The notes under the pieces were generated by a model. The model saw nothing but the letters and a program-made list of their open reading frames with translations. It was not told the origin of the DNA and made no database searches. From Polytrichum commune (taxonomy: Eukaryota > Streptophyta > Polytrichopsida > Polytrichales > Polytrichaceae): a DNA stretch of 64,000 nt. The stretch spans positions 13,704,001 to 13,768,000 of the forward strand of contig OX485803.1 in assembly GCA_950295325.1 (NCBI GenBank), read 5' to 3'. Shown in pieces: positions 2,396-43,489 of the stretch. A program made the translations under genes and the position numbers. The stretch's first letter is position 1; each line of letters opens with the position of its first letter.

Positions 2396-2849
2396 AATAG
2401 AAAGAAGTAGTGAAGTAACAACCACATGACAATACCCTAGAGGTTTGAACTAATTGGCTACATATTCATAGGTTGGTCTTGTGTCTTATGGTGCATTTAT
2501 AGACAATCTCGTCGATGATCCCATCCCCCCCCCCCTCAACGTGGTTTTGAAGACAAGAAAATTAAAAAATTGTTTATGATAACTTCATCTTTAGCCATTT
2601 GGTAATAATAAACCCTATTGATATATTCTCATTCATTTAGTTGAAATTAAAGTGCAAACACGATCAAATATGTGAAGACTCCAACATACAACTCCATGCA
2701 AGATCTAGTATGTTAAGCACATGATTAATAACCCTTAATCACAATAATGCATATGTATGTACAATTCATTCATACCATTAGATGAACAAGGCATAGGTAA
2801 TATAGTAGGTCCAGGTGTTTACATCTCAACCAATAACCTCTAAATTGGA
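2396..2849. other. AT-rich non-coding stretch with a C10 run
   Basis: No coding frame or RNA recognised. A poly-C run lies at about 2525-2535. Confidence 0.4.
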
Positions 2850-3830
2850 GAAAGGCTCCTTGGCCTACAAACCTACTAAGAGAAAAAATCAATGCCCTAT
2901 TAATTGCCCTAACCACTGCTAGACACTACTCACAAGATACCTTTGTACTCACATTTAGCCTTAATAGCATGCACCTAATATATGACCACATAAGGCACCT
3001 ATCATTCCAACATAAATATCCCAACAAACTACTCATCTTAGCCATAGTCAACTAAATCATATGATCCACACATAACATAACAATACAAAACGTCGAAGCA
3101 CATACTAGTATAATAGGAAATGAATTAGCCAATCAATTAGCAAAAGACATAACCACCTTAAATAAACCCACTCCCACACCCCATATGCACATACCACATA
3201 CCACATACCATACCATATTGCCTAAATGGAACACCAATCGGGGCACACAATGGAGCTATCTATAGTTTGCAAACATACATGCACAAAGAAAATCATGAAA
3301 TTTAATTAGAAGTGGCCAAAACCAAAACTCCCTATGTTGATAGATGGGTGTCTAATGACCAAATTGTTCACAAACGCTCACATCACTACTGGAAAGCCAT
3401 GGGTATCTTTGACACACACATCACCAATAATAATAATAATAATAATTGCTACTCCCAATACATGGGCAACCATCGAAAAACATATTCTATCCAATCACCC
3501 ATACCCAAATTGCACACTATGCCCCCAACAACGCAATAGACCCAAGGCCACACTTACTATCCACATGCTCAAACCAACATATTTTGCATAGCCTGCCATA
3601 AGAATGGAGTCCATCAAATAAACACACGCACTCTAACCCAACATATATGCAAAATTCTACACTCTAATCAATGCATGAAACCAAAACTCTGAACCACAAG
3701 ACATAACCCCAACCCCTCAAATATCATATAACTCAAAAAATCCACCTACTACCACTATAAATTCCCCAATATGGCAACCAAAAGAACAATCCACTCATAT
3801 AAGCACTTAGAATTGCATGTTAGAAAGTCA
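2850..3830 (+). pseudogene. Decayed LINE ORF2 3' segment (RNase H and zinc-motif region)
   Basis: Across shifting frames the plus strand still reads like ORF2 of LINE copies 1-3. Near 2850 there is an RLLGLQ-like block, as in RLPGLQ of the intact copies. Near 2960 comes LNSMHLIYDH, matching the DCLNxLY region of RNase H. Near 3090 is VEAHTSIIGNELANQLAK, matching the VKAHTNIQGNEQADKLAK end of RNase H, with the last catalytic Asp changed to Asn. A CTLCPQQ block near 3510 corresponds to the CxxC of the zinc motif. Numerous stops and frameshifts show that it is dead. It precedes an RT relic on the same strand, so it belongs to a different copy from 3831-7388. Confidence 0.65.
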
Positions 3831-6800
3831 ACCCCCTTTTTACTACTACTATATTCATAAGAGGAGATATCTACAAGCACTCAATCCAAAAATTAGAACA
3901 TCTCAAAACATATGCCAAATCCTATGTTTATGAAAACCTAGCCACAACATCCTCCTCCGTAAAACAAAAGGATCACACACTATTACCCAACTACATATCC
4001 ATCCCCCTAACAAACACTATCTATAAATCTATTCACCGGCACAACCACCACCCATTAAGAACAACATGGTGAAACATACCAAATCCTCAACGATAACCGA
4101 TAAGGGTTATGGGTCGAACACAATACCATATGCCGAATCCAGATACTTAATGTTGCCATTGAGGATGCCAAACTTGTCCACCGAGACTTATACATTATCC
4201 ACATAGACTTTAGGAATGCCTTTGGCTTCACATACCATCTTCGCCTCCTTGCCATTATGGAACATCTAGGCTACCTTGTTAACACCGTTAGCCTTGTTGG
4301 AAACATTATGCCAATACCTTTATCACCTTTGTTGGGCCTTACTTCAGACAAACTCAACAAGTCCCATCTCTAGAGGCATCATCCAAGGGGATACCTTCAT
4401 CTTCTAACTCTTCCTATTATTCCTTGAGCCCCTACTCCGTTGGCTAGAATGGGACAACTATGGCTACCACCACAATACCTCCAATATGCAAACCGACTCT
4501 ATAGCCTATGCCAATGACCTAGCCATCCTATCACAATACCTCCCCAACCTATAAGCTCAACCTTTCAAGCACTAAAGATTTAACAACTAAACAAGAATGA
4601 AACTCAAGATACCCAAATGTGTCCCCCCCCTTTAAATTAAACTCCAACATTGTAACCTCACCTACAAAAAATCATATACATACTTAGGAATACAACTTGT
4701 TCCTCCCTTTAAATGGTCCATCCAAACCTCCTTACTCAATCCCCGCCACCATATGCCAAACACTACATGTGGTCAACATTGTCATCATGCTCGGCGTATA
4801 ATACACCTTCTACGTTGCACCACTCTTCATACCTGACATCAAAAAACTTGACCAAGTTATTGTCCAATTAGTCAAAGATATGTAACCCCCCCCCCCAAAT
4901 GCCATTGTCCAAATCCCACATAATGTTTTTCCGAACCGATGTTCTTTCCTTCCTCCTTGCATGTACTTGAGTGTTTGTTTCTCAACTATGCGGCACTCTT
5001 AACAACAACAACAACAACAACCACCACCTCATAATCATCTATACCAAATTTATATGCCACCTCGCCAGTAGGTTTGGCGGATTACGCACCTTCCTCAAAC
5101 TCACACCATTAGTCTGCCTCCACTCCCCTATCACACGGTCCTTCCAAATGATGTGTGCTCTAAATATACGCTTCAACCATCAATGACTTCCCATACCAAT
5201 CTTCACCCTTCGAACATCTTTGGAACAATCACATTTCCATTGCATGCTTAGATGAAACGAAACAACTCTCCCATCCCAAACTCTTCACCATCTTACTTAA
5301 TTGGCAACTCACTACCATCCGAGACATTGTTGAATCCATTGGCACATGCACCCTCATGCCCAAAACTTTCAAAATTGTCATTCACAAAATGCACAAAACT
5401 CAATTAACAAGCCATTGCCCACCCAAAAGCTCTTATACTACACCCACCATTGTTGAACCTCCCAAATGCACACCCATCGTCATTGCACCTCCCAATGCGC
5501 ACCCCATGCATACATGATCATAATAATAACATCCTCTTCCCAAACTAACAACCCACCCACAACCCCCCCCCCCCCCCGCCATTGCCACCTCTCTAAATCT
5601 CCACGCCCAACACACCCACCAACACTCGACCGCACACATCCACTCCAACTGCTGACACCACTCCCAAAACTCTAAAGCCATCCTCACGTGCCTACCAAAT
5701 ACAAACCATTCATGGGGTCCGCATAGAATACAAACTAAACTCCAATGGCATCACAAAATCCAAACACAAATACCTTTGCCATTTGCAATGGTTCCCTGAC
5801 TTTAAGGTCACCTAGGAACCCGAAGAAAACCTCTTCGGCAACCATGAGCAATGGTTCCCTAACTTCAAAGTCACCTAGGAACCCACAGAAAACCTCTTTG
5901 GCAACCATGAAGATTGCGACCCCACACATAATGAACACCTCTTGATGCAATATATACCCGCACTACACATACACACATCCAAAATATACATAAAAAAAAC
6001 ACTACCTTTGATCACAAACATGAGACCTTTGCTATATTGAAAACCTATACACCTACCTAATATCCACATTTACAACCATGGAATGTTACCCATACGCATA
6101 CATCTACATCACCATCCATATCCTCCAAATATATATATTTTTTGCATGATTCCATGACATTTTGGCCCCACCCTCTTCGAATTTTTGATACCATGCATCC
6201 AATAGCGAACAATACCTTTACTCCCCCCCCCCCCCCCTCCCCCTTCATCCATACCCTCCACCCCCTCCCAAAGACTTTGTGACCAAACTCTTTTGGCTCA
6301 TCCAACAATACCCTTCACAACAACCACTCCCTCCACACACTAGATGCAATCTTCGTCATACAAGGCAACACATACTCTATCCAACGGTGAGGACGAGGTA
6401 TCACCAATCTACCCAACTCCCAAACAATTATCGAAGCCCTCCATTGGGCATGCATGGTGGCACGCACTGACCTTGAAGCCCTCACCATATTTATTTCCCC
6501 TACAAAGATTGGTACAGCAAATGCCACCCACTCATAAGTCCATACACAAACACTTAGGTACTAACCCACCTTGACCCCCACATCCTCACATACTCACTCC
6601 AAGTTGGATCCCCGACCTATCTCACCCGACCAGAGCCAAGAATCATCACCATTTTATGAATACACCAATTTTCATCAATAAAAATTGTACATGATTTCAT
6701 GGAAAGATTTGATATTGTCTTGAAACAACATTACGTTGCAACAAACTTACCAAATTTACAAGTACCACAAAATGGAAACACACCTCATTCCCCTCCTCTG

Positions 6801-7388: not shown

Positions 7389-7399
7389 CAACAAATCAA
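7389..7399. repeat. Target-site duplication of LINE copy 1 (left)
   Basis: CAACAAATCAA, identical to 20786-20796 at the other end of the element. Such short direct repeats are made by target-primed reverse transcription. Confidence 0.85.
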
Positions 7400-7935
7400 G
7401 AAGAAGAACTCCGGTCCCTACTAGGGACCGGAGTGAATAAAGTGTATGTTCGTAGGACAACCGTGGCCGTACCCCAGGGTAGCGGCGTTGGGTGTAATAC
7501 TACTTCACCCTTTGCAGGGAGTAGACACTATGTTAGAAACCGATGTTTTAACCGGTTGAACCGGGGGGGGGGGGGGAGGGTGGTGTGTAGGGTGCATGGG
7601 TTTTAATTTAGATTTGTGTGGGTTTTGCTACTTTGTTTGAGACGAGAAGCGTGTGTATTTGTTTGAGTATAAATGATGGTTGATTGTGTTGTTGGTCGCC
7701 AAGTCATGGTTCCAAGGTTGGTTGGATAAGGACGTGCGTGTTGTATTAATACGGTCCGGGTTCGATTCGCGTTGAATCCGTCTGAGCGTGTTAGTGCAAT
7801 ACACTTTGACTTGGTGCTGCAAGTGAGTTAATCATAGGCAGGAAAGTTATGCCAACCAACCGGCTACTCCCCGCCTTTCTGAGCTATAGGTGGTATCTTA
7901 ATAATTAGTGGTCTGACCACTACCCCTCTCTAATT
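7400..7935 (-). other. 3' UTR and tail of LINE copy 1
   Basis: The 3' terminus, in element sense, ends with a perfect inverted repeat at 7408-7434 (ACTCCGGTCCCTA arms, one central base) followed by a short TTCTTCTTC tail instead of poly-A. The block AGTAGACACT (7528-7537) and GTGAATAAAGTGTATGTTCG (7433-7452) recur in copies 2 and 3, so about 140 bp next to the end is conserved, as expected for an RT recognition structure. A G14 run lies at about 7563-7576. A second conserved block at about 7810-7890 (GGCAGGAA...CCAACCAACCGGCT) is shared with copy 3. Confidence 0.75.
7707..7790 (+). other. tRNA-like / pol III promoter-like segment (antisense to the LINE)
   Basis: On the plus strand GGTTCGATTC at 7759-7768 matches the tRNA B box (GGTTCGANTCC). 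A box A-like AGGTTGGTTGGATAAGG lies at about 7715-7731, at ordinary tRNA spacing. The same arrangement recurs in copy 3 at 30436-30492. Acceptor and anticodon stems do not fold convincingly, so it is not a functional tRNA gene. It may be a tRNA-derived SINE fused into the LINE 3' UTR in reverse orientation. Confidence 0.45.
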
Positions 7936-10011
7936 TTAGTTATGATTTTGTAGGTCTGTGATGGGTTGTCTATTTTCTATTCGTCTTTTGTGGATTAATA
8001 TTGAGTGTGCATATTGTATGGCAATTATGTTAAGTTGTTTGAATGTGTTCCTAATTTGTGATGTAGGGAGTTTAAGCTTTGTTTCAAGTTCGTTCATTGA
8101 GGGGATGTGAGTTGTGGCTCGAGCACCAGATGCTAATACGATAAGTGGGGCTACGTTCCAACCCTTTGCGATGATATTATTTATGAGTGGTTGATATTTT
8201 GTGATTTTTTGATTTATGGTTTCAGTGGAGAATCTGTCATTACAGTATGTGAATTCTATAAATTGAACTGTAATTTCTGGTGTGGGTGCTTCTGGTGGTG
8301 GGGAATTGTAAGGGTGCCCTATAATGCATAGAATGTCGGGTTTAAGTCTAGCGTTACAATGACATCTTTGGGTACCACATGTGCAGGGTAGTAACCATGT
8401 TGGTACTGTGTTGTCTTGGGGTAGTTCATTATATGTACCTGCGTTCATGAGTATGTAGTGTCTTGTTATTTTATTTGAGACAAGAAGTTTGCGGATTTCC
8501 CATACCGCTTTGTTATGTCTTTTTGTAATTAGTGCGTGGATGTGTTGTTGTTTGCACTTAAGGAGTATATGTAGCCATGTATCCGCTTCTAGTGAGTTGC
8601 AAATGTTACATGTATGGGATGGGTATGCAATTCTACCAAAAAATAGTTGTTTTCTAGCTTGTCCCATGTATTGTCCGGTTCGGAATTTTACTAAGCACGT
8701 TTTTTGCTTGTCTGAGATAGCAGGGTTGGTCCAAAAGTCATTTGATAATGTTTTGTCGATATCTTTGTTATCAAGCCATTTATGTAATTGATGTGTTTGG
8801 GTTGCTAGAATGGATAGGTTGTGTTTTTTATCATGTTTGATGATGTATTTGCCAAGGTGTCGGATGGGGCCTTTGTCTGGTGTTTCTTGCATTGAATGCC
8901 ACCAATCTTTTTGGAGGTAGTATGGCGTGGGGTGCGCATACTCATGTGTGGCTATAGCGTCTCTATGTTCTAATTCACAACCCAATTTTGCTAATTTATC
9001 GGCTTGTTCGTTACCTTGAATGTTTGTGTGGGCTTTGACTTTGTGTAGTGTGGTGGTTTGTGTGCGGGATTGCAACATCTTAACTATGGATTCTAGTATC
9101 TTTTTATCCGGGTGGCTATTGTGTAGTGTTGGGTGTTTAGTTTGCGTGTTCAGGAGGTATAAGACATTGAGACAATCTGTAAAGATATGTGCCGGTTCAT
9201 TCCGGTATGTGGTAGTGAGGAGGTGGAGGGTGTGGTGTATAGCCATAAGTTCTGCCCTAAGTATATTTTGGAGTCCGGGTAGTCTTTCTGTGATTTTGAG
9301 GTTTTTGAAGGGGTTATATATACCATACCCTGCTTTTTCTCTTCTCCAATGCCCTCGGGTTATTTCTTTGGGTGGCATGAATGATCCATCCGTGTAATAG
9401 CAAAATTGTGGGTGGTATTTGAGGGGTAGGCATATGTCTTGATTCGTGTATATGGGAGTGTTAGAAGTTTGGTTTGTAAGTGGATGGGGGGGCGGGTATA
9501 TAAGTTGGGACCATTTCTTGCTTCTATTTACTAAGGTGTTTATAGGTGTAGGCGGTGCCGGTGTGTGAAATGATGTGGGTATTTGGAGGGTAGTGCTAAT
9601 AGTGTCCATACGAGTCGCATATTCACATGATCCGGGGGACGTGTGTTTGTGGTGTATACATAATATGCGGATGTCATGATTTTCTGTTCGTGGGTTAGTT
9701 CGTAATTCCGGGGGTATTGTGGGTTCATCATATGCAATGGTGTCTGCTTTGAAATGTGAGATAACGTGAGAATCTGGGAAAGGGCCTTCATGGGGGTTGA
9801 TGTTGTGGTACCAGTTTGGGTCAGTTGTTATGAGTATTGTGATTGTGTTTGGGTTATGTTTGGCGGCAAGTCTAGCCCAATGTAGGGCTTGTTGAGTGTC
9901 TTTTTCTGTGTGCGGGTGGGCATATCCCACCCCTGCCCATTTATGTTGGAATGCTGTGCCTATTGATCCGAATACCTTGTCCCTAGAAAATGGGGAGGAG
10001 AATTGTTTCAA
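7936..10011 (-). CDS. LINE copy 1 ORF2, C-terminal part: MTase-like, RNase H, CCHC, RLE-like domain
   Basis: 691 codons. Residues ~9-70 hold a block conserved in copy 3 (DKVFGSIGTAFQ, GYAHP, QALHWARLAAK, NTITIL), resembling Dam-like methyltransferases. RNase H follows at ~200-340, with catalytic Asp in YTDGSF, Glu in RAELMA, Asp in FTDCLN and a final GNEQAD. At ~467-490 C-x2-C-x9-H-x4-C is followed by KRHNKAVWEI, the zinc-motif plus RHN arrangement of RLE-type LINEs. At ~540-640 come PCTCGTQRCHCN, KPDILCI, FIEFTYCND and KYQPL...GWNVAPLIVLASGA, which I read as a PD-(D/E)XK restriction-like endonuclease. The frame differs from the upstream segment by one base shift near 10.05 kb; the listed start is only the first Met in an open frame. 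Confidence 0.8.
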   Translation of the reverse strand: MKQFSSPFSRDKVFGSIGTAFQHKWAGVGYAHPHTEKDTQQALHWARLAAKHNPNTITILITTDPNWYHNINPHEGPFPDSHVISHFKADTIAYDEPTIPPELRTNPRTENHDIRILCIHHKHTSPGSCEYATRMDTISTTLQIPTSFHTPAPPTPINTLVNRSKKWSQLIYPPPHPLTNQTSNTPIYTNQDICLPLKYHPQFCYYTDGSFMPPKEITRGHWRREKAGYGIYNPFKNLKITERLPGLQNILRAELMAIHHTLHLLTTTYRNEPAHIFTDCLNVLYLLNTQTKHPTLHNSHPDKKILESIVKMLQSRTQTTTLHKVKAHTNIQGNEQADKLAKLGCELEHRDAIATHEYAHPTPYYLQKDWWHSMQETPDKGPIRHLGKYIIKHDKKHNLSILATQTHQLHKWLDNKDIDKTLSNDFWTNPAISDKQKTCLVKFRTGQYMGQARKQLFFGRIAYPSHTCNICNSLEADTWLHILLKCKQQHIHALITKRHNKAVWEIRKLLVSNKITRHYILMNAGTYNELPQDNTVPTWLLPCTCGTQRCHCNARLKPDILCIIGHPYNSPPPEAPTPEITVQFIEFTYCNDRFSTETINQKITKYQPLINNIIAKGWNVAPLIVLASGARATTHIPSMNELETKLKLPTSQIRNTFKQLNIIAIQYAHSILIHKRRIENRQPITDLQNHN

Positions 10012-10079
10012 TGTAGTAGGACATGTGATTGGTGATGAGAAGTAAGAATGGGTGATGTGGAAGGAGTCAATGATGTTTT

Positions 10080-11444
10080 CTATGATGGCATTTGGGAGGT
10101 GTATTGTGAGAGTTTGAGGGGGTTGTTTTTGGGCATTCTATATTTGTATCTTTGATACAACCATGCCACTTCTTTTTCAAAGGATTGTATGGGGGGTTCT
10201 AAGTTGTGTGGTTTGTTTAATGCATTTTGGTATTGTTCCCATAGCCATTGTAGTCTTAGTTCGGGAATGGTAATTAGGTGGCGTCCGTCATTATCATAGA
10301 TGTGTGATGCGCCATATTGGCTTTGAATGGTGTGTTGTGTGCATTCAATGTCATTATCCGGGTTGCATTCATTGATATGAATGTGGCATAGGGGTATGTC
10401 TTGTGGTGGGCGGACATATCTTGTGTCTCTCATTTGTGCTTCACTAAAGTTTATTTGGAGAATGTTGGTAAAGTGTTGGTGTTGTTTTTGGGTGTAGTAT
10501 TGTGTTAAGAGTAGTATGTTATGATTTATAGTGTTTTGGTTGTTCCAAGGGAACAAGTCTCTTTGTGGGAGCCATTTATGGTATTTGGTGTCGTTAGGAA
10601 GTATCCATTGGCAAAGGTAGGATGTGTAGTGTTTTGTGATTTTGTGTTTGTCTTTGTATGTGTGAGGGTGGTCGTTTATTATAGATTGTATTGGGAATTG
10701 TATGTGGTTTCGTTGGATGTGTAAGGGGGGTTTTGGATATTCCGGTAGTGGGGGTGGCATGGGGTGTATGTTATGTCTACTTAGGCTTGTGTTTATATGA
10801 TGATTTTGTATTTTGTAGGCGTCCTTGAGAGTATTGGGTGTCGTATGTGTTAGGCAAGTATTTGGGCATTGGTTGTGACAAGGGGGTTTACAAAATATCT
10901 TACGCGCGTGTTCTAGGGCGGTTTTAACTAGTTTAGTGGGTGGGGCATAATAGTACTTGAATTCATCATTTGTCATGAGGTGTGTGCCATTGGGGTGCGT
11001 GATGTGTTTTAATTCGGTTATGTTGTGTAAAATTAATTTATGCAAGTATTTGAGGGAAGTGGTGGGAGTTAGTGTGGGTATATGGTGTGCTTGACTCATC
11101 CATTGTGTCTCTAATGGCGTAGGGTGAAGGGGGAATTTTGCAAGTGTACTTCTAAGGTGAGTGTCACTAGTTTTTTTGAGTAGGTATAATGTTCTAGTAA
11201 TTGGTGATCTCATGCAATCATGTGGGGTTATTCGTGGTAGGTGGAGTGATCCGCCATGTTTGGCAAGGATATGTTTGGTTAATCCATTATATATTCTTCC
11301 AAGTCTTCCTTGGTCGTTGAGGGCATTTATGAGTTGTTCTCCGATACATGTTATATAGGCGTTTTTTAGTGAGAAAGCTTCGGTGCCGAAATATTTTGTG
11401 GAAGTTGTGTAACGGCGTTTGATAGGCATTTCGGGAGGCCACAT
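10080..11444 (-). CDS. LINE copy 1 ORF2, middle part (post-RT region)
   Basis: 454 codons linking the RT segment to the RNase H segment, in a third frame that overlaps the RT-bearing frame at 11366-11444. It begins with the FGTEAFSLKNAYITCIGEQLINALND region and continues with a His/Pro/Thr-rich stretch. CNQCPNTCL, a possible metal-binding Cys group, lies about a third of the way from the start. Copy 3 has a clear counterpart (32727-33677 plus the end of 33732-35996), including the CDS-like signature W(L/M)PQRxLFPxN. No enzymatic domain is recognised. A +/-1 change near 11.4 kb separates it from the RT part. The shared layout suggests one long ORF2 polyprotein originally. Confidence 0.75.
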   Translation of the reverse strand: MWPPEMPIKRRYTTSTKYFGTEAFSLKNAYITCIGEQLINALNDQGRLGRIYNGLTKHILAKHGGSLHLPRITPHDCMRSPITRTLYLLKKTSDTHLRSTLAKFPLHPTPLETQWMSQAHHIPTLTPTTSLKYLHKLILHNITELKHITHPNGTHLMTNDEFKYYYAPPTKLVKTALEHARKIFCKPPCHNQCPNTCLTHTTPNTLKDAYKIQNHHINTSLSRHNIHPMPPPLPEYPKPPLHIQRNHIQFPIQSIINDHPHTYKDKHKITKHYTSYLCQWILPNDTKYHKWLPQRDLFPWNNQNTINHNILLLTQYYTQKQHQHFTNILQINFSEAQMRDTRYVRPPQDIPLCHIHINECNPDNDIECTQHTIQSQYGASHIYDNDGRHLITIPELRLQWLWEQYQNALNKPHNLEPPIQSFEKEVAWLYQRYKYRMPKNNPLKLSQYTSQMPS

Positions 11445-14400
11445 ATATTTTTGTGTAGGGCAATTATTCTTTTATCTAGTTTTTTAATAGCGGGAAGTGA
11501 GTATGGGACGGCATAAAAGCTATAGGCTATGCCGGCTCTTATGACTGTGTCAACCATTTGTATTTTTTGCTTCATGGTGGCTGGGCATGTGGTTAGGAGT
11601 TTACATTGTTTGATTAGTTTGGTTGTTGTGATGTGCGTTTGTGTTTTCCATTGTAGTGATGGAACTAAATTGATTCCGAGGTAAACATATGGTTCGTGTT
11701 GGCTTAGTATTGGTATTGGTTGGTTTCGGAAGTTAATATTGATGGTCGTTAAATGTGTTTTAAAGGCTTGTGCATTTAGTTTGGATTTATTTGGGCATCC
11801 TGTGATTGCGCATTTCGGGATGCCGAGGTCCATTCCGGCCCATTCGCAATATCTATCTAGCTTGTTCAATTGTTGTTGGATGGATGTCATATGGTTGGAT
11901 ATTATCGCTAGGTCGTCCGCATAGGCCGCGGAACTTAATTTTGTATTAGAGGTTTTAAAGGTGTATCCGTGGGGTCCGCGTTGTAGCCATCTAAGTAATG
12001 GTTCGAGAAAGATGATGAAGAGGTAAGGGCTTAGCGTATCTCCTTGTATGGTTTCCCTTTGTATGGGTATGGGTAGTGTTTTATCGAAGTATTCCCCGAC
12101 AAATATGGTAGTTGATTGTGAATAGATATTTCCTACTAGTGCAACGGCATCTTGCGGATAACCGAGGTCTTTCATAATGGCGAGGAGTCTAGCATGGTCG
12201 ATAGAGCCAAAGGCATTTTTGAAGTCTATGTATAGGATGTAGATGTCTTGGTTAGTGAGTCGTGCATCTTCTAATGCGGCGATGAGGGTTTGAAGTTGTC
12301 GGGCGGTGCATCTTTCAGCTCTAAAGCCCTCTTGGCTATCATGTAGAATTTGATGTTTTTCCCCGTATGAGGAGAGTATACTAGTAAACGTGCTAGTAAA
12401 TAGTTTGTAAATAGTGTTGGCAAGTGCAATAGGCCGATGGTTGGTGAGGTGATGGGGGTTGCCTTTTTTGTATAAGAGTTTCGTAAGGCTCGTTTTCCAA
12501 GTTTCAAGTATTTCTTTTTGTTTATAACAGTGGGTAAAAAATAATAGTAGAAGCTTATGGAATCTTGGCGGCATATTTTTTAGTATGGTGTTAGGAATTT
12601 GATCGGGTCCCGGCATTTTCCTGTTGGTAAGGTTTTTAAGACATATATCGTATGTTTCTTGGTCTAGATATGTGTGTAAGGGAGTTAAGGCTTCGCCTCT
12701 CTTTTCTATAGTAAATCCGTTGAGGTCGTGCCATGGATATTGTCTAACTCCACATAGGCATTGTTGTGGGTGATCGGGTTGATAATGACATGTTGGGACG
12801 GTTGGTCTATTACTTATGGATTGTTGCACATGTATTTCTTGTGCGATGTCTGTGGGGCTTGTAAGGATATTATTGAATCGATCTATTAGGCAGTCTAGAG
12901 GGGGGGTGTCAATATTCTTGAAGACTTTTCTATTAATTTTCTTGGGACTTTTGTCATATAATTGTTGGTATTTGCATATGGCTTTTTTGATTTGTTGGGT
13001 TGTGTAGTTTGTTGTTATTTTGCGGGCTTTGTTTTTAGCTTCTTTGGCGATGTTGGCTAAGTTGGCTAACCATGTTTCGTATGGGTGGGAAGGATGTGGA
13101 GGTGGGGGTATAGTGACAGAGGTATGGTTGTTAATTTCTTGTGTGATAATGGGGTGAATTCGCCAATTTGGGTTGTTTTTTATGATATATATTGTTTTTC
13201 TAATAAGATGGTAGGTAGATAGATGTATTTTCCATTTTTTTTGGAGTTTCTTTGGAAGGTAGCCTCCTTGCTTGGCAATTTTGTTTGATAGCGTGGGAAT
13301 GGGTGGGGCACTACATGTTTCAAGGACGGAGGTTGTAATGTTGTCGGTGAGGAAACTTAGTGATTGACATGCTAGTTGCCATTGTTCATTTGTCAAGTGG
13401 TTATTTTCTAACAATTGTATGAGCTCGTCGATTTGGTTTGAGTTGTCCTCGAAGAATTTGGTGTGGAATGTTTCTAGGTTTTCCTTGGGTATAGGGTTGA
13501 GTATCCTAGGTGGTGGGTCGGGGGTTGTGATTGGTTCTCTTGCTATAAGTGTGTTTGGGGGTATTCGGAGTTGTATAGGTAGATGATCGGAGTTTAGGTG
13601 CGTTGTTTGATTTGTGGTTGAGGTGAATTGGTGGTTATGTGGGGTTTTGATGTAAAATCCATCTATTAGGCTATTTTGTGTGTAATTATGTCCTCCTTGT
13701 CTTGAAAATGTTGTGTTTGTCGGGATGTATGTTAGTTCTAGGTTGGTTGTGAAGGATCGCCAAAGGTAATCTTCCGGTTGTAGCGGTGTGGTTTGTTGGT
13801 CATTTTGTCTTCCAATTAAAGCAACGTCTCTATTAAAATCTCCACATAGGATATATGTGTGATTAGGGTATGTATTTATTTGATGAGTGATGTTAGTTTG
13901 TATGAAGGGGATGAGAGGTAGGTCCTCCTCATGCGATGACATATATAAATTAATTAAGAGCCATGGTTGTAAAGGTTGGTTTGCTATGCGCGTTACTTGG
14001 AGGAATGGGGATATGTTTGCGGGGGTGGGAATTTTGGAAAGATTGCCTGGAAATGCATGTTTGTTGTGTATTAGTAGTAGTAATCCCCCTCTATATTCTC
14101 TATATGTCATTCGTTGGCGTGTGATTCTTGTGATGTTGTGGATGTTGTTAAAGAAAAGTTTGTATTGAGGGAATAGGTATTGTATATATTTTGTAGATTT
14201 AGTGGCGGAAAGCTTGGTTTCTTGAATGGTGATGATTGATGGGGGTTGTTGGGGGTCCGTGATTAGTTCTTGTAGACATGGCATGGCAGTGTTTAGTGAG
14301 GAGGCATTCCAGGTTATGGCGTATGATTCTTGACTAGTTAGCGGGACCGGATTGGGCGAGGATGATGAATGATAAGTAATGGGGGGGTTGGGACTTGTGT

Positions 14401-15253
14401 ATTCATTTATAGGTTCGTTATATCTTAGTGCCTCCATTAGTAGTTGTCGTGGTAGGTATGAGAATTTTTCTTGTAATTTTTCTATATTAGCGGAGTTATG
14501 GTCTAGATGTATATAATCATATAATTGTTTGTGTATTGTGTTGGGAGGGGTGATAGTGTCTTTATATATATGGCAAAATTGTGTGTATGGGTGTGGGGTA
14601 TCTATGTGTCTTTCTGGTGGGTTTTGCAATCTTGACATTCTTTCTAGTAGTTGAGATGTCCATTCTTGTATTGGTTGGTGGTGTAGGAGTGTGTTACATG
14701 TTAGAGTGGAGGGACTAATGGTTACGATTATTGCATAGATGACCCTTGGGGGAGGGTGGTGATTATATTGTTGTATGTGATTATACAAGTATGGGAGGGA
14801 GTGTATTATTTGTGTATGTAGCGGATGTGTGTTTTGGAAAAGGGGTTTGAATGTTCCGGCCAAGTGTTGGTATTCTGGGTGGAATTTGATCGTACTTGGT
14901 AAGAAATATGTTGTTTGTCTTCTCTTGTGGTCAGGGGGGTGTGTTTTTAGTAGGTCAGGCATAGGTCCTGGGTTAGGGTGGATGTCACCACATTGTAGGA
15001 GGAGATGGTTTTGATTGCGGTGTTGTGTGCTTATGCTTAATTGTGGTTTCTTGTTATGTGATTGTATGACGGGTGGTGGTTGAATTTGGAGTAAGTAGGG
15101 TGGTGTCCATATGGTAGTTATATATCTATGTATAATTATGGTGTTATTTTGTGTGTTTGGGTGTGAGGGTTTTGGGGCGGTTGGTTTGTGGTGTGAATGG
15201 CTTTGGCCTAATTTGATGGGGTTAAGGGGGTGTTGTGGTAAGTGTATGGGCAA
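11366..15253 (-). CDS. LINE copy 1 ORF2, N-terminal part: 2A-like, APE endonuclease, reverse transcriptase
   Basis: The listed start codon is TTG; the frame is open back to about 15362 and its first ATG is at 14962, right after a 2A-like motif. After ~200 residues of unknown function come APE endonuclease motifs: ITWNASSLN (~313), a QETKL catalytic-Glu block, LCGDFNRD (~469) and SDHLPI (~556). RT motifs follow: MPGPDQIPN (~885), QEGFRAERCTARQL, YIDFKNAFGSIDHARLL (~1005, first catalytic Asp), QGDTLSPYLF and AYADDLAI (~1111, catalytic Asp pair), then YVYLGINL. This is the nicking and target-primed reverse-transcription engine. All RT catalytic residues are present. Confidence 0.88.
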   Translation of the reverse strand: MPIHLPQHPLNPIKLGQSHSHHKPTAPKPSHPNTQNNTIIIHRYITTIWTPPYLLQIQPPPVIQSHNKKPQLSISTQHRNQNHLLLQCGDIHPNPGPMPDLLKTHPPDHKRRQTTYFLPSTIKFHPEYQHLAGTFKPLFQNTHPLHTQIIHSLPYLYNHIQQYNHHPPPRVIYAIIVTISPSTLTCNTLLHHQPIQEWTSQLLERMSRLQNPPERHIDTPHPYTQFCHIYKDTITPPNTIHKQLYDYIHLDHNSANIEKLQEKFSYLPRQLLMEALRYNEPINEYTSPNPPITYHSSSSPNPVPLTSQESYAITWNASSLNTAMPCLQELITDPQQPPSIITIQETKLSATKSTKYIQYLFPQYKLFFNNIHNITRITRQRMTYREYRGGLLLLIHNKHAFPGNLSKIPTPANISPFLQVTRIANQPLQPWLLINLYMSSHEEDLPLIPFIQTNITHQINTYPNHTYILCGDFNRDVALIGRQNDQQTTPLQPEDYLWRSFTTNLELTYIPTNTTFSRQGGHNYTQNSLIDGFYIKTPHNHQFTSTTNQTTHLNSDHLPIQLRIPPNTLIAREPITTPDPPPRILNPIPKENLETFHTKFFEDNSNQIDELIQLLENNHLTNEQWQLACQSLSFLTDNITTSVLETCSAPPIPTLSNKIAKQGGYLPKKLQKKWKIHLSTYHLIRKTIYIIKNNPNWRIHPIITQEINNHTSVTIPPPPHPSHPYETWLANLANIAKEAKNKARKITTNYTTQQIKKAICKYQQLYDKSPKKINRKVFKNIDTPPLDCLIDRFNNILTSPTDIAQEIHVQQSISNRPTVPTCHYQPDHPQQCLCGVRQYPWHDLNGFTIEKRGEALTPLHTYLDQETYDICLKNLTNRKMPGPDQIPNTILKNMPPRFHKLLLLFFTHCYKQKEILETWKTSLTKLLYKKGNPHHLTNHRPIALANTIYKLFTSTFTSILSSYGEKHQILHDSQEGFRAERCTARQLQTLIAALEDARLTNQDIYILYIDFKNAFGSIDHARLLAIMKDLGYPQDAVALVGNIYSQSTTIFVGEYFDKTLPIPIQRETIQGDTLSPYLFIIFLEPLLRWLQRGPHGYTFKTSNTKLSSAAYADDLAIISNHMTSIQQQLNKLDRYCEWAGMDLGIPKCAITGCPNKSKLNAQAFKTHLTTININFRNQPIPILSQHEPYVYLGINLVPSLQWKTQTHITTTKLIKQCKLLTTCPATMKQKIQMVDTVIRAGIAYSFYAVPYSLPAIKKLDKRIIALHKNICGLPKCLSNAVTQLPQNISAPKLSH
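14963..15004 (-). other. 2A-like ribosome-skipping motif (second) in LINE copy 1
   Basis: Encodes LLLQCGDIHPNPGP in frame with the APE/RT segment and directly before Met-14962. The 2A consensus is D(V/I)ExNPGP; here Glu is replaced by His, a variant seen among 2A-like motifs of non-LTR elements. Skipping would separate an N-terminal peptide from the endonuclease/RT protein. Confidence 0.7.
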
Positions 15254-15359
15254 TGGGCTTACTAGTTGGGCGTATTGGAATACGGGTGGATTTTTAATAG
15301 AGTATTGTTTTGTTTCTTGAATGTTTTTTATAAGGGGATTTTTATAGATGTATGAAAGT

Positions 15360-15410
15360 GGGCCCGGATTGGGTTGTATGTCTCCACTTCTTAGGATGAG
15401 TGTTTGGAGG
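15360..15410 (-). other. 2A-like ribosome-skipping motif (first) in LINE copy 1
   Basis: Encodes LQTLILRSGDIQPNPGP, 356 bp upstream of the second motif. It lies in a different frame from the open frames on both sides. A one-base loss upstream (near 15415) and a one-base gain in the C run just after the motif would place all of them in one frame, so the pair of breaks is compensating. Confidence 0.65.
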
Positions 15411-15793
15411 TCAACAATTTGTGCAAAGGTTTTGTGTAATGTTGGATGTTTTAAGTGTGTATGTCTTATTGTGTAGAAGTTGATTAAAGTGATGTTGTGG
15501 CGGTTTATGTGGCTATATCCAATGTGATGATGTCTTAATGGTGTGGTGATGTGAGGTAGTGGAGGTGTATGTGAGTTTAGTATGGGTGGTGTGGATGTGC
15601 CCGATATGTGGGTTTTTAGTGTTTCTTTTAGTGTGTAAAATAGCTCTTCTTTTTGAGGTGTTGTTTTGTTTGAGTTTGGGATGGTATTATATAAAAGTGT
15701 GTGTGTGGGTGTGTTAATTATTATGAGTGTTATGTTATGTGAGTAGTTGTATGAGTGAGTATGGTTATGGTGTAGGGTGGTAATAGAGTGTGC
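15394..15793 (-). pseudogene. Open frame upstream of the first 2A-like motif (ORF2 leader region)
   Basis: About 130 sense codons, from just after the ORF1b stop to a TAA near 15393, with no Met in frame. It is His/Thr/Asn-rich, with blocks such as KEELFYTLKETLKTH and NFYTIRHTHLKH. It is in the same frame as ORF1b, separated from it by a single TAA. Its continuity into the 2A motif is broken by one base. It may be the N-terminal leader released by 2A skipping. Lacking Met, it would need readthrough or internal entry, or the TAA is a mutation. Confidence 0.4.
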
Positions 15794-16006
15794 TTAGTAT
15801 GGGTTGTTTATTGTATCGTGGGATGATGTGGGAGTAGCGTGGGGGGTTAAGGTGGTGAAATTAGCACATAGTATTGAGGCTATAATGATATGGATAAGAG
15901 TGATATTGAATTGCTTAGTGCGTGTGCACTTTTTATTGATAAGTAATAGAAAACATATATAGTATGTAACTAGCGTCCATGTGTATGCTAATGGGTTGCT
16001 ATTCAT
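15794..16006 (-). CDS. LINE copy 1 ORF1b, small hydrophobic peptide overlapping the ORF1 stop
   Basis: 70 codons. The start overlaps the end of ORF1 in an ATGAATAG arrangement (ATG at 16006, ORF1 TAG at 16001-15999), typical of termination-reinitiation coupling. Two hydrophobic runs are visible: WTLVTYYICFLLLI (residues ~10-23) and ITLIHIIIASILCANF (~36-51), separated by a basic NKKCTRTK. The nucleotide stretch coding for YYICFLLLINK is conserved in copy 3 near 40080-40115, where the frame reads LLYIFLCYINK but has no obvious ATG. No known domain. Whether it is translated is unknown. Confidence 0.4.
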   Translation of the reverse strand: MNSNPLAYTWTLVTYYICFLLLINKKCTRTKQFNITLIHIIIASILCANFTTLTPHATPTSSHDTINNPY

Positions 16007-19000
16007 TTTGGGAGTTTGGGCCTTTGTGGTAACTTGATGGGGAATTCCGGTAGTGGGTACTATGGAATCCCGGGGGTGCTAGTTGTGCCGCGTTGGTGTC
16101 GTCCATGGGATGGTGTGGTATGTGAGGAAGTCTTGCGGTGTTGACTTGAGGGGGAGGGGGGTCCGGGAGGGTGGCGGCGAGTGTTTGCATGATGTTGTGG
16201 ATGCGATGGTTCGATTGTTGAAACTCCATGGCCATTGCACTCATGATGTTGTGGATGTTGGCCGCATGTGTTTTGAGTGTTTCCGTGGATGCCTCGATTC
16301 GTGTGTCCGTGTTGTGGTTGATGTTGTTGGCGATTGTGTTGAGTTTAACGTCCATTGTTTCGGTGAGGTCTTTCATGGCTTTGTTGAAGATCTTCTCCGA
16401 CACTAAAGGGGAGGCGGCGGCATGGTTGCTCATGGCTTGAGCCTTTTGAGCGATGACTTCCCGTACCGGTGCGTGTGCGAGGCGAATGGCGGTGGGGTTA
16501 GGGTCGGAGCCATCTATGCTACCTTTGTGTGGGACAAAGTCTACTCTCCTTCCAAAGATATACGAAGACTTGTGTAACCATTCAGTGTAGACGGCGGCAT
16601 TTAAGCATTGAATGTGGCACCATCCGGCTTGCCTATCGTCGTCTTGTTTGTTTTGGTACCCGAAAGTGACTCTGGTGACATTGTCTTCTCCAATGAGCTT
16701 CTTGAGATGTTTGGTGATGGTTGATTGGGACTCTCGTTGCGGGAGATTGTTCGCTACAAGAGTAGTACTAATCCTTAGCTCCGAGGGGTTGCCCAAGTCT
16801 TTATCCTTGGTGATGCTCACTTTGAGGCGTTCGGAATGGTATGTGAGACCATTGTTGAGGATGTCCGCTCTAGCCTCTTCGTTGGTGAGGGTGATGAAGG
16901 CGAAATCTTTCTCGGTGTCCGACTTGGTGAGGGAGAGAATCTCTATTTCGCGGCCATCGTAGTAGGAGTCCCTCATGATGCTCCTAAGTATGTCGGTGGC
17001 CGTATTGTCGCGGAGGGCCTCTCCCTTTAGGTGTAGTCTCATGTTTCGGGCTTTGGTGATGAGTTCGAAGCCCTTCTCGACTTTCCCAATGATTCTCTCT
17101 CCATCCCCCATAATCATGACAAAAGCTCTTTCTCCACGGAGGAGGGCCAAAGCATCCCGTTTCGGGTGTTGGAGGTGGATTTTAATAAATCTGGCCCAAT
17201 TTCGTGTGATTGTGTTGATACCTATGTCCACGGGGTTAGAGTATGAGGTACCTAACGTCATGTTCATGAGTTTGAGCCTTTCTATGCAAGCTATTTTAAC
17301 CTCCCTCCGACTAAGCTTCTTGTACTCTCCATCAAACCTTATGGTGACATGAAAACCTTCGGTGAGTCCGGTGTCATTGGATATTTTCTCGTACCTTGGG
17401 ATTTGTGTGAGGTGTAGATGTTGGCCCGGGACCGCGTCCGGTCGTTCGGATGGGTATAAGACTTGTTTCGTCCTTGGGAAGGCGTGTCGGAGTGAGCGGA
17501 ATTCTTGGATTTCGGTGGGGGGCGTACCTATGGCAAGGAATTCTTCATTTGTCCGAGACTCCTTCAAAGTACTCTTGCTATGTTGGGTTAGGAGTGCCTC
17601 TTGCATTTGGAAACCTAGCCACATTTGGCTAAGCATATCAATGCCTAATGTGGATGTGCGTTGGGATTTTGTATGGGCGGGGGGTGTGTTGTGCTTACTT
17701 GAGATTTTGGGCGTGGACGTGGCGGTGTAGTCTTCGGCTTTTCTCCTCTTCGTGGTTTGGCTCTCCGAGGCGTCCTCCAACCGGGGGTTGCGGTATTGTA
17801 ATCTGGGTGGCGTACTTTCGGAGATGTGCATGGGCTTACGGGGTGTTGCTTGTGCGGCTTGAATTGAGTGTCTCTCTAGTGAGACTTGTAGGGAGCTCCC
17901 ACCGCGTTCCGGTGACACGTTCTCCAATTGGGCGTCCATGTCCAAGTCTTCTTCGGCATCCATGTCGAGGGGCAATTGAGGTGATTTGGATTGAGTTGGC
18001 GGGTGGGCTTGAACTTGGCTTCGAAATGACGTGTATTGGGCCTCCATCGTCCTTGGTGACCGTGTGTGATGGGACAGCTTTCTGTCTTGAGGGCCGGCTG
18101 GCCTAGTCTTTTCGGCGTACAGGTGTATATAACCGTGGGCCGGGCTGATTCGGTGTAGGGTCGTTGGCCTGGGGACCGGGACTTGTCTAATTTGGTGGAG
18201 AGCCGTTGGGCTTGGGTCTGGTGCCTTGCGCGTTTGGTGGAGGGTCGTTAGCCTGGGGAGTCTGTGGCTTCGTCTCGGTGTGATGGGAGTTGTCAGTTGT
18301 TTGAATCTGTGAGAGTGCATGCAATGTGTGAGTGTGTGCTGAAGTGTGCGTTGTGTGAGGCAAGGGAGGTGGAGTCTGCAAGAGGGGGCATGTAGGTGGG
18401 TTGAGAGTGTCTTACCATTAGCTGGGTTGCGGTTGGGTCTGATGTGTGTCTGGTGCTGAATTCGCCTGTCGTCCTTGGTTGCAGTTGTTTGAATTTGGGC
18501 TGTGTTCTGGAGTGATCTGCAATCAGGGTAACTTTGAGTGAGGTGGTCTTGGTGGGGTGTGCAATGTGTTGCATGTGAGTGAGTGGGGAGGGGGGAGATG
18601 GTTACCTTGTGTGCGTCGGGGGTGTTATCCTGGTGGGGGCTGCTGACATTCGGTGTGGTATGCGTAGGTGTCTTGCGGGAGCGGGTAAGCGGCGTCCTGT
18701 TGGTGGCTGCAGCATGTCGGCCTTGCGGTGTGTGGGCTTGGTGCTGCGGGCTTTCGGTGTAGAGAATTGCTGCAGCTACGTCGGTGCTGATTCGGTGGTG
18801 GGCGGCTACTGTGTCACTGGTGCTGTTGATGATGATTCGGGGGCGTCTGTGGTGTGCGCAGTGGTGAATTTCGGTAGGGTCTGGGTGTCGTGCTGCGTGG
18901 GAGGGGTTGCGGTCAGTGAGTATCGGTCGTGAGAGAGTGGAGTGGGGGGGATGAGGATTGTGGTGTGGAGAGGTGCATATGTGTGATGAGGGGTGAGTGA

Positions 19001-20666
19001 TGACTAGAGTCGGGGAGGGTGGGGGAAGTGGGGATGAAGTGTTGTGAGGGAGAGAGGTGTGTGTGATTGTGAGTGAGTGGGAGTGGAAGTGAGGGATGTT
19101 GTGTTTGAGTGTGGGCGTATTAAGTAGTAATCTATGGTAGCTAATGTTGGTGTTTGCTCGGGTGTCTGTGCTGGCTTTTTCGGGGAGGTTCTGGTGTGAT
19201 TTTGGGTGTGCTAAGGTGGCTGATTTCTTGTGGCGGTTTGTGGGTGTCGTCTTTCGGCTAGTGGGATGCTTGGGGTCATTTTCTGTGTATCTGTCTGAGT
19301 AATGTTGGGTTTTATAGCGGAGTAGTAAATATTGTGTGAGGTTTTGTGTGATTTTGCTTGGTTTTCTTGATGCTGGTTGATTGTGTGGTACAGTTTGAGC
19401 GCACTGGTGTTGGGTGGAGGTTGTGCAAGCGTCTGTGTGTTGTGCATGTTGAGGTTGTCTTTCGTTGGGGGGTACCTCCTGCGTCCACTGTTGGCATTTT
19501 CCTTCGCGGTGGCGTCTATCTTCCAAGTTCCAGGGTGTGGTTGAATGGGGTGACAGGAGGCAGATCGACCTTGGTAGGGGGTGGGCATCTTGCAGAGGCG
19601 GGGATTGGAGGTTTATGAGTGATGCTTTGGCCGACGGGGGCAGTGAGGGGTGCGCGACTAGTGAAGGGGGTAGGAGGCAGGGATCTTTTGACGGGCGCAG
19701 GCTGGTGTTAGTGTTATTTTGGTGCTGGCTGGTTGCTTCTTCCGGCAGGCAGCATTCGTCGAGCTGGTGGGAGGCGGAGGAGGTGATACATCGGGATCGG
19801 CAAGTATGTGTTACTTTGTGTGGGGTGTTTTGAATGTGTTGATTGTATGAGAAGGTTTGATTGCACTGGTGTGCGCGTTTTTTCAGAGCTGTGTGGGTGT
19901 AGATTTGTATGTACTTCTGTGTGATGTTTGTGTGTGGATTGGTGAGGTCAAGGGTTAGGGTTTGAATGTACCTGTGTCTATTCGAGGTGGTCGTGCGCTC
20001 TTGGTGGGTGAAGGTTGTGCAAGTGTCTGTGTGTTGTATGTGTTGAGGCTGCCATTCGCGGGGGGATGTCTCCTGCGTCCAGCATCGGTGTTTTGTCCAG
20101 CATCCATTGTTCGAGGTCCAAGCTTCACGGTGGTTTCTATCAGCCGAGACCCAGGCTTCGCGGTGGCGTCCATTTGTCAGGTTCCAGGATGTGGCTGAAG
20201 GGGGTGGCAGAAAGTAGATCGGCCTTGGTAGGAGGTGGGTCTCTTGCAGTGGCGGATAGTGGAGGTGTTGAGGTGATGCAGTGGCCGGCGGGAGCAATGG
20301 GGGATGCGCAGCTAGTGTAGGAGGTAGAGGACATGGGTGTTTGATGCAATTCTTGTGCGGGGGAGTTGGGTAGATTAGGGTTAAGCAAGTAAGCGTGTAA
20401 AACACTATTTCAAATAAAGACAGTTGAGGTTGACGGCCTTTCTCTTGTTTCTGCCTGTGAGGTGGTTGTGTCTGTGTTGATGTTGTGTCGAGGGCCTTTC
20501 TCCTGTTAGCTCTTCCATGTGTATGTTGGTGTGCGGAGTTCACCTCGGGGCTGGGCTTCTCTCTTGTGTGTCGCCATCTTCGCAGTAGGCTTGAGTTGCA
20601 GCGCCTCCGTTGTCGACTCTGTTCCAGGCTGCATTCGATCTGTGTTGCGGCCTGCGCTGCGGCCAT
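15999..20666 (-). CDS. LINE copy 1 ORF1 (RNA-binding-like protein), long N-terminal extension
   Basis: 1555 codons without a stop. The conserved part is the last ~600 residues: PSERPDAVPGQH, HLQHPKRDALALLRGERAF, and RISTTLVANNLPQ followed by GWCHIQCLNAAVYTEWLHKSS...VDFVPH, which has the beta-alpha-beta rhythm of an RRM fold. Copy 3 ORF1 (40314-42185) matches these blocks. ORF1 proteins of LINEs bind the element RNA in cytoplasmic particles. A plausible internal start is Met-18047, giving 682 residues, close to the copy 3 length. Alternatively the ATG at 20666, only ~119 nt from the element 5' end, is real, and the His/Thr/Pro-rich N-terminal 870 residues with 218-codon repeats are translated. 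The low-T sense strand makes stop-free runs likely by chance. Confidence 0.7.
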   Translation of the reverse strand: MAAAQAATQIECSLEQSRQRRRCNSSLLRRWRHTREKPSPEVNSAHQHTHGRANRRKALDTTSTQTQPPHRQKQEKGRQPQLSLFEIVFYTLTCLTLIYPTPPHKNCIKHPCPLPPTLAAHPPLLPPATASPQHLHYPPLQETHLLPRPIYFLPPPSATSWNLTNGRHREAWVSADRNHREAWTSNNGCWTKHRCWTQETSPREWQPQHIQHTDTCTTFTHQERTTTSNRHRYIQTLTLDLTNPHTNITQKYIQIYTHTALKKRAHQCNQTFSYNQHIQNTPHKVTHTCRSRCITSSASHQLDECCLPEEATSQHQNNTNTSLRPSKDPCLLPPSLVAHPSLPPSAKASLINLQSPPLQDAHPLPRSICLLSPHSTTPWNLEDRRHREGKCQQWTQEVPPNERQPQHAQHTDACTTSTQHQCAQTVPHNQPASRKPSKITQNLTQYLLLRYKTQHYSDRYTENDPKHPTSRKTTPTNRHKKSATLAHPKSHQNLPEKASTDTRANTNISYHRLLLNTPTLKHNIPHFHSHSLTITHTSLPHNTSSPLPPPSPTLVITHPSSHICTSPHHNPHPPHSTLSRPILTDRNPSHAARHPDPTEIHHCAHHRRPRIIINSTSDTVAAHHRISTDVAAAILYTESPQHQAHTPQGRHAAATNRTPLTRSRKTPTHTTPNVSSPHQDNTPDAHKVTISPLPTHSHATHCTPHQDHLTQSYPDCRSLQNTAQIQTTATKDDRRIQHQTHIRPNRNPANGKTLSTHLHAPSCRLHLPCLTQRTLQHTLTHCMHSHRFKQLTTPITPRRSHRLPRLTTLHQTRKAPDPSPTALHQIRQVPVPRPTTLHRISPAHGYIHLYAEKTRPAGPQDRKLSHHTRSPRTMEAQYTSFRSQVQAHPPTQSKSPQLPLDMDAEEDLDMDAQLENVSPERGGSSLQVSLERHSIQAAQATPRKPMHISESTPPRLQYRNPRLEDASESQTTKRRKAEDYTATSTPKISSKHNTPPAHTKSQRTSTLGIDMLSQMWLGFQMQEALLTQHSKSTLKESRTNEEFLAIGTPPTEIQEFRSLRHAFPRTKQVLYPSERPDAVPGQHLHLTQIPRYEKISNDTGLTEGFHVTIRFDGEYKKLSRREVKIACIERLKLMNMTLGTSYSNPVDIGINTITRNWARFIKIHLQHPKRDALALLRGERAFVMIMGDGERIIGKVEKGFELITKARNMRLHLKGEALRDNTATDILRSIMRDSYYDGREIEILSLTKSDTEKDFAFITLTNEEARADILNNGLTYHSERLKVSITKDKDLGNPSELRISTTLVANNLPQRESQSTITKHLKKLIGEDNVTRVTFGYQNKQDDDRQAGWCHIQCLNAAVYTEWLHKSSYIFGRRVDFVPHKGSIDGSDPNPTAIRLAHAPVREVIAQKAQAMSNHAAASPLVSEKIFNKAMKDLTETMDVKLNTIANNINHNTDTRIEASTETLKTHAANIHNIMSAMAMEFQQSNHRIHNIMQTLAATLPDPPPPQVNTARLPHIPHHPMDDTNAAQLAPPGFHSTHYRNSPSSYHKGPNSQNE
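19415..20400 (-). repeat. Tandem 5' repeats of LINE copy 1 (654-bp offset)
   Basis: Two imperfect direct copies. The block CGGTGGCGTC followed by the GTTCCAGG region occurs at 19507 and again at 20161, an offset of 654 bp. The block TTGTGCAAG at 19421 recurs at 20015, an offset of 594 bp, so one unit carries a 60-bp internal insertion. Both offsets and the length difference are multiples of three, and the ORF1 extension stays open across both. Repeated 5' monomers act as promoters in some LINEs; here a coding repeat is also possible. Confidence 0.7.
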
Positions 20667-20785
20667 CGCAAGAACTCATACACATACATAGTTGCTTAGG
20701 AAGTTCTAGATTGATCTCGAGGTTTGTGTTGTGGCTTACCACGGCTGCACTCCCCTGGAACCCAAGTGTTGTATGGGTTGATTTC

Positions 20786-21221: not shown

Positions 21222-21232
21222 TTCAGCCGACA
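21222..21232. repeat. Target-site duplication of LINE copy 2 (left)
   Basis: TTCAGCCGACA, identical to 22653-22663. Confidence 0.85.
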
Positions 21233-22652: not shown

Positions 22653-22663
22653 TTCAGCCGACA
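22653..22663. repeat. Target-site duplication of LINE copy 2 (right)
   Basis: TTCAGCCGACA, identical to 21222-21232. Confidence 0.85.
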
Positions 22664-27370: not shown

Positions 27371-27384
27371 GATTAGAAGGGCCA

Positions 27385-33677: not shown

Positions 33678-33731
33678 TAGATTTGTGCCATTTGGGAGAG
33701 TGATGTGTTTGATTTTGTGTATGTTGTGAAT

Positions 33732-37664: not shown

Positions 37665-37709
37665 AGGTCCTGGGTTGATTTCTATGTCACCGCTAAGGAG
37701 TATTAGAAG
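37665..37709 (-). other. Canonical 2A-like ribosome-skipping motif in LINE copy 3
   Basis: Encodes LLILLSGDIEINPGP directly before Met-37664. It fits D(V/I)ExNPGP exactly, with the hydrophobic upstream stretch typical of 2A-like sequences of non-LTR retrotransposons. The coding frame is open upstream into the GT microsatellite. Confidence 0.75.
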
Positions 37710-37750
37710 ATGTGTTGGGAACTTGTTATTTTGTGGTAGGATTTTCCTCT

Positions 37751-37769
37751 TTATGGGTTTGTTGTTGTT

Positions 37770-37823
<54 letters not shown>

Positions 37824-43483: not shown

Positions 43484-43489
43484 TTGTGT

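Follow-up and report, generated by a model that had tools for sequence, protein, structure and literature searches.

Dualen-group LINEs with two predicted endonucleases and a CAPAM-like domain in a 64-kb window of the Polytrichum commune genome

The window analysed here, a stretch of 64,000 nucleotides of Polytrichum commune (contig OX485803.1, positions 13,704,001 to 13,768,000), carries three copies (A, B and C) of long interspersed nuclear elements (LINEs). Their second open reading frame (ORF2) combines an apurinic/apyrimidinic-type endonuclease (APE), a reverse transcriptase (RT), a domain resembling the methyltransferase PCIF1/CAPAM, an RNase H and a C-terminal module of zinc finger, RHN motif and restriction-like endonuclease (RLE), in this order (Table 1). 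We put at about 0.9 the probability that copies A-C are Dualen-group LINEs of a land-plant genome, with the family and architecture described below. The predicted domains and their order, a shared 3' hairpin with a simple tail, three target-site duplications and the 5' truncation of copy B can be read directly from the sequence. Two things appear to be new: the occurrence in a plant, with element ends that are clearly defined, and more importantly the CAPAM-like domain, apparently common to the group. The original prediction, a motif reading of the same DNA, had not included the target-site duplications, the CAPAM-like domain or the 2A-like peptides.

Two endonucleases in one ORF2

The original prediction had read an N-terminal APE and a C-terminal RLE from short motifs, and all of these were located on the minus strand: GDFNRD at 13826-13843 and NSDHLP at 13577-13594 for the APE, then C-x2-C-x9-H-x4-C at 8554-8610, RHN at 8503-8523, KPD at 8326-8346, E-x-T-Y at 8245-8265 and K..KY at 8188-8211. 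The YADD motif of the RT lies at 11906-11926. We translated the minus-strand frames 11366-15793, 10080-11471 and 7936-10137 as P0001, P0002 and P0003. The RNase H indeed lies between the RT and the zinc motif. The predicted interval, 7936-15253, falls inside the element, which is larger.

The C terminus of the window's own element is predicted to adopt an R2-type RLE fold (AlphaFold; predicted local distance difference score, pLDDT, 82.8; predicted template modelling score, pTM, 0.81), so the fold comparison with R2 bore the prediction out. The zinc-RHN piece is collinear with R2 at a weak sequence match (independent E-value, i-E, 0.0028). The RLE claim rests on the predicted fold, because the nuclease piece matches R2 weakly by sequence (i-E 0.21 within a joint piece, and 0.3 and 69 when taken by itself). 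The C-terminal motifs are beyond chance, since the module recurs in 35 of 105 newly found relatives with conserved residues; these relatives are in none of the search profiles, which were built from earlier matches. The PD is kept in 32 of 34 filled rows and the E in 32 of 33, and the zinc ligands are equally constant (C-C 34/34, H-C 33/34). The first K of K..KY is less constant (21 of 31 filled rows). APE and RLE occur within one protein in relatives, and all five domains do so in 15 of the 105, with no violation of the order; the dual-endonuclease architecture stands on a Pfam match for the APE, a predicted fold for the RLE and their union in single proteins.

In P0102, P0105, P0158 and P0223 the RT protein also has a PHD finger or a chromodomain, which could serve chromatin targeting. 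By eye the window linker is similar to the P0223 chromodomain (43.4 bits), but hhalign gave a probability of 0.1 and the candidate was rejected.

Placement in the Dualen group

The RT tree, a check already named in the original prediction, groups the window copies with green algal proteins. In the 49-row tree they belong to a six-row family (support 100/100) inside a 34-row clade (100/99.8), which holds eight green-algal rows (five of Haematococcus lacustris, two of Parachlorella kessleri and one of Pleodorina starrii) and also rows of the same architecture. The same clade was found in an earlier 37-row tree with fewer rows (19, 100/99). Three sequences with very long branches, P0116, P0119 and P0124, fell outside the 19-row clade and were dropped before the larger tree was made; P0112 is a fused gene model that contains three RTs, of which we took a single one. 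The R2 rows form a separate branch (100/99). With R2 as the root, the sister group of the 34-row clade consists of 12 other LINE rows, in a tree with few reference clades; the APE Pfam domain is found in 8 of the 11 database rows among them, and one of the 12 is human L1. In the approximately unbiased (AU) test, holding the window family together with six L1-like rows was rejected at p 6.2e-10, and joining it to six other LINE rows at p 1.4e-4; these groups had been named after the 37-row tree was seen.

The family assignment of the original prediction holds for the architecture and for the RT clade shared with Pleodorina and Haematococcus. Pleodorina P0196 and Haematococcus P0166 each have Josephin, APE and RT domains. 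Haematococcus P0171 and P0179, of the same RT clade, have RNase H, the CAPAM-like domain and RLE in the same order as the window.

Several points weigh against this assignment. The RT tree has no Chlamydomonas Dualen row, its algal rows including Pleodorina (Volvocaceae) and Haematococcus; the name Dualen therefore rests on the Josephin, APE and RT proteins of these two algae and on papers, as annotated Chlamydomonas Dualen is absent from the comparison. Dualen carries a cysteine protease, and Pfam (E up to 10) finds none in the ORF1 and ORF2 frames of the window. The assignment of the RLE catalytic lysine appears unsettled, with E-x-T in the window and the variable first K of K..KY. Both full copies, A and C, are defective, and over their first 5.8 kb no alignment between the two was found. 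The 2A-like peptides of the window keep NPGP twice, with the consensus glutamate replaced by Q and H.

One alternative is a separate plant lineage in which an APE LINE regained an RLE and converged on Dualen. The RT tree gives the window family a branch to itself, which would fit this, but the order of RNase H, CAPAM-like domain and RLE is shared across the RT clade, P0171 and P0179 included, and we regard such convergence as very improbable. An APE-only LINE of the L1, I or CR1 type, with an ordinary zf-RVT zinc motif and an RLE likeness due to chance, is less probable again. Plant L1 elements also combine an APE with RNase H and with a zinc motif (RNase H according to the available part of PMC4640811), and zf-RVT matches below the cut-off occur in P0107 (22.7 bits) and P0097 (15.4 bits), but the C-terminal fold prediction and the RT tree both speak against it. 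The presence of several adjacent copies could suggest a chimera formed within the window when an R2-like element inserted into the 3' end of an APE element, which is hardly credible given the same order in copies A and C at 67% DNA identity over 7.4 kb and the 15 five-domain database proteins with that order in a single frame.

Two further observations concern the relatives. A cysteine protease in P0098 (YNCGIW) was a motif reading alone and was rejected, Pfam finding none there. P0034 and P0187 are LINE pieces from genome bins labelled Nitrosocosmicus and Agrobacterium, and are most likely mis-binned eukaryotic contigs.

A CAPAM-like domain without the catalytic tetrapeptide

PCIF1/CAPAM is a cap-specific adenosine-N6 methyltransferase that methylates mRNA caps and has the catalytic tetrapeptide NPPF. 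The CAPAM fold was predicted for the relative P0066, to which the window protein P0003 is linked by alignment at 50% identity. The Pfam family PF12237 scores above gathering in P0097, P0102, P0103 and P0107. The equivalent of NPPF in the window is AHPH, within 9904-9924. Among 123 CAPAM-like segments, 111 have letters at this position, AHPH in 45 and NPEY in 11 of them; NPP[FYW] is found in none of the 123, also in an alignment-free search, and SPPF once (P0145). The ANPEY of P0097 aligns to human ANPPF with E 0.053. The other active sites of the new rows are kept in the filled columns: APE GD-N in 50 of 51, RT xDD in all 104 and, for RNase H, the E in all 39 and the second D in all 38. The ratio of nonsynonymous to synonymous differences (pN/pS) between copies A and C is 0.43 for the CAPAM-like segment and 0.21-0.45 for the other five, all six below 1, with synonymous sites near saturation and the decay of both copies included in these values.

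The domain has most likely lost methylation, and on this model it may now bind the element RNA, at its capped 5' end or elsewhere, a role to which we give roughly even chances. Cap binding as such is putative, and we hold it less likely than not. The same caution applies to a wider proposal: an overlooked CAPAM-derived domain common to green algal and plant Dualen-group LINEs could be a former cap methyltransferase that now serves to read the 7-methylguanosine-capped 5' end of the element's own RNA, and the choice of template (cis preference) or full-length copying would in this way be coupled to the RT. If true, this would be a first case of a retrotransposon with a cap-recognition module of its own. 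A literature search for PCIF1 with retrotransposon or retroelement and the Pfam names gave no LINE-encoded domain among the matches listed, as far as their available text goes.

The evidence is not all on one side. The fold was predicted on P0066 and not on the window copy, whose own PF12237 match reaches 26.0 bits against a gathering score of 31.1. Pfam finds no CAPAM domain in P0105, P0106 and P0108, and a weak one in P0104 and P0109. A domain that still works as an adenine methyltransferase, its catalytic motif changed, and marks the RNA or DNA of the element would agree with the Asp-x-x-Phe-Gly seen in 40 of the 46 filled new rows, with the N-P-E-Y rows and the single S-P-P-F, and with the constraint between copies A and C. 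The complete lack of NPP[FYW], the frequency of AHPH and the preservation of the remaining active sites in the same proteins make such activity unlikely, and we prefer the loss of methylation.

ORF1 and 2A-like peptides

Residues 981-1509 of the probable ORF1 frame of copy A match copy C at 40332-41918 with 26% identity. Pfam gave no match for this ORF1, and RRM-like stretches, seen by eye alone, were rejected accordingly.

The 2A/StopGo consensus is D-[VI]-E-x-N-P-G-P. Tandem 2A-like sites, as in the window, also occur in P0091 and P0093, and GDIEPNPGPMP is present in P0086, P0094, P0095, P0096 and P0099. The strict D[VI]ExNPGP is found in 9 of 231 collected proteins, namely the close family P0086, P0093, P0094, P0095, P0096 and P0099 and Haematococcus P0166, P0224 and P0228. 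We infer from these peptides that 2A-type skipping may take place at NPGP.

Copies, ends and defects

The direct repeats flanking copies A and C are perfect and abut the 3' tail. The chance matches expected are ~0.017 for the 11-mer of copy A and 0.011 and 0.003 for the other duplications, assuming uniform bases over the ranges searched; AT-rich sequence raises the expectation. Besides the 7.4 kb, the 3' ends of copies A and C also align. Copy A is defective because its ORF2 is spread over three frames in a six-frame reading. Copy C has frame changes and stops in ORF2, with RT and linker sharing one frame, and in the relative P0007 a single frame spans everything between RT tail and RLE, both included; the ancestral ORF2 was therefore one long frame. 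The long open frames are partly compositional, as G makes up 13% of the bases in the sense strand of copy A. The original prediction had counted at least five copies: copies A, B and C stand, and the two decayed plus-strand pieces may be one rearranged copy.

Copies A, B and C each end in a hairpin followed by a short simple-repeat tail. Read by eye in these three sequences, stem columns 32-53 pair as C-G in A and C and as U-A in B, and the copy C hairpin has a one-base bulge. The 5' region of copy C has a 142-bp tandem repeat (42566-43485, 99%) and that of copy A has repeat pairs ~600-650 bp apart (19408-20330); these are possibly promoter monomers. A tRNA B-box-like motif, gggttcgattc, lies antisense to the element in the 3' untranslated region at ~7755-7770 (A) and 30475-30490 (C). 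It was rejected as a tRNA: ARAGORN found 0 tRNA in the window, Rfam gave nothing in 7000-8000, and just two unrelated sub-threshold matches were obtained in 30000-30800.

Table 1. Features of the window (positions in the window; sequences of the duplications as tokens)
Feature	Position	Strand	Remarks
Copy A, full-length Dualen-group LINE, defective	7400..20785	-	13,386 bp; 11-bp duplication at both ends
Copy A target-site duplication, 3' side, CAACAAATCAA	7389..7399	.	adjoins 3' tail
Copy A target-site duplication, 5' side, CAACAAATCAA	20786..20796	.	bounds 5' end
3'-terminal hairpin and (TTC)n tail, copy A	7397..7435	-	common to copies B and C; last three bases overlap the duplication
C-terminal zinc finger, RHN and predicted RLE module	7954..8775	-	AlphaFold; R2 matches
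RNase H	8977..9405	-	Pfam 3.9e-15
CAPAM/PCIF1-like methyltransferase-fold domain	9403..10137	-	Pfam PF12237 (PCIF1_WW) 8.1e-6, below gathering; fold of P0066
RT tail, linker, start of CAPAM-like domain (second frame of broken ORF2)	10080..11471	-	in frame with RT in copy C; in frame with CAPAM-like domain in P0007
RT, segment used in trees	11369..12703	-	Pfam RVT_1 5.6e-27
APE domain, limits approximate	13514..14341	-	Pfam PF14529 6.7e-7; motif positions
Second 2A-like peptide, GDIHPNPGP	14963..14989	-	in frame before APE; first Met of frame directly after
First 2A-like peptide, GDIQPNPGP	15359..15385	-	in frame, upstream of APE
ORF1 of copy A, probable	15999..18047	-	from Met of MEAQYTSFRS (guessed start); stop-to-stop frame 15999-20675
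Copy B, 5'-truncated	21233..22652	-	1,420 bp; duplication TTCAGCCGACA at 21222-21232 and 22653-22663
Copy C, full length, separate subfamily, defective	30192..43489	-	13,298 bp; duplication TTATCTAATATA at 30180-30191 and 43490-43501
Decayed RNase H-zinc fragment	2849..3479	+	two tblastn pieces, identity 29-30%
Decayed RT fragment	4029..5153	+	four tblastn pieces, identity 29-51%
RuBisCO small subunit (rbcS) exon	63399..63791	-	Pfam 5.6e-36; compared with solved chains

Proposed cycle

The duplications, the 5' truncation, the hairpin and the tail suggest target-primed reverse transcription with staggered cuts. One transcript would encode the ORF1 protein and ORF2, and the N terminus of the latter would be shed through 2A-like ribosome skipping. 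The ORF2 protein could then bind the 3' hairpin of its own RNA, and the CAPAM-like fold between RT and RNase H, lacking the catalytic tetrapeptide, may also bind element RNA. One endonuclease would nick the target, and the RT would copy the RNA from the nick; RNase H would remove the RNA and the other nuclease would cut the second strand, giving the 11-12-bp duplications. The two cuts could be divided between the two nucleases, either of which may make the first.

These 13-kilobase plant LINEs tie an algal jumping-gene family to plants. Full-length plant copies with duplications, together with more than 100 listed database relatives, provide a basis for asking which of the two cuts each nuclease makes. 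A cap-methyltransferase fold in the polyprotein whose active site has been lost offers a testable proposal for how a LINE protein could recognise its own capped RNA, which bears on cis preference.

Window surroundings

The rbcS exon supports the land-plant genome of the original prediction, as its sequence appears to be of land-plant type. Against the eight solved chains with the highest scores (170-183 bits), of which several are presumably rice, it shows zero or one-residue net length change; chains near 142 bits, presumably Chlamydomonas, are seven residues longer. Judged by this exon, a streptophyte alga would be a less likely host. A Copia-type long terminal repeat (LTR) element lies at 54284-59678 (+), with LTRs at 54284-54518 and 59445-59678 that are 98.7% identical; Pfam recognises its gag, integrase and RT, which are spread over several frames. 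We also observed a hAT transposase dimerisation domain at 2-718 (+; Pfam 1.9e-6) and a satellite-like array at 27293-28197 with periods such as 22, 44 and 132 bp.

Comparison with known systems

The Dualen/RandI group of non-LTR retrotransposons was reportedly described by Kojima and Fujiwara in 2005, and APE-type LINEs with 2A-like peptides are said to have been described by Odon in 2013. The latter and the window element share an NPGP peptide near the ORF2 N terminus and differ in the glutamate, which is Q or H in the window.

In the excerpts available, Dualen encodes both APE and RLE (PMC4640811; PMC3636483) and serves as an argument for the origin of APE LINEs from LINEs of the RLE type (PMC4640811). 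Such excerpts also place Dualen elements in every species compared in one study (PMC8226300) and report LINE/Dualen repeats in cryptophytes (PMC12747079). A 2013 table, in the part seen, lists RandI among plant LINEs under green algae only, and algal RandI 3' tails are given as (ATT)n and (CTATTT)n (PMC3747384). No report of a land-plant Dualen was among the open-access matches listed, as far as their excerpts go.

With Dualen/RandI as excerpted, the window element shares APE and RLE in one ORF2, the RNase H, an RT between R2 and other LINE rows and a simple-repeat 3' tail. It differs in its land-plant-type host, in the cysteine protease that Pfam did not find, and in the 2A-like peptides and CAPAM-like domain, which go unmentioned in the excerpted Dualen descriptions. 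PCIF1/CAPAM is similar in the fold predicted on P0066, but in the LINE polyprotein the domain has NPPF replaced. R2 (Bombyx, Taeniopygia, Platysternon) has the C-terminal zinc-RHN-RLE module and provides the nearest solved fold and, by score, the nearest solved RT, whereas its rows stand apart in the tree and the window element has in addition an APE, an RNase H and an ORF1.

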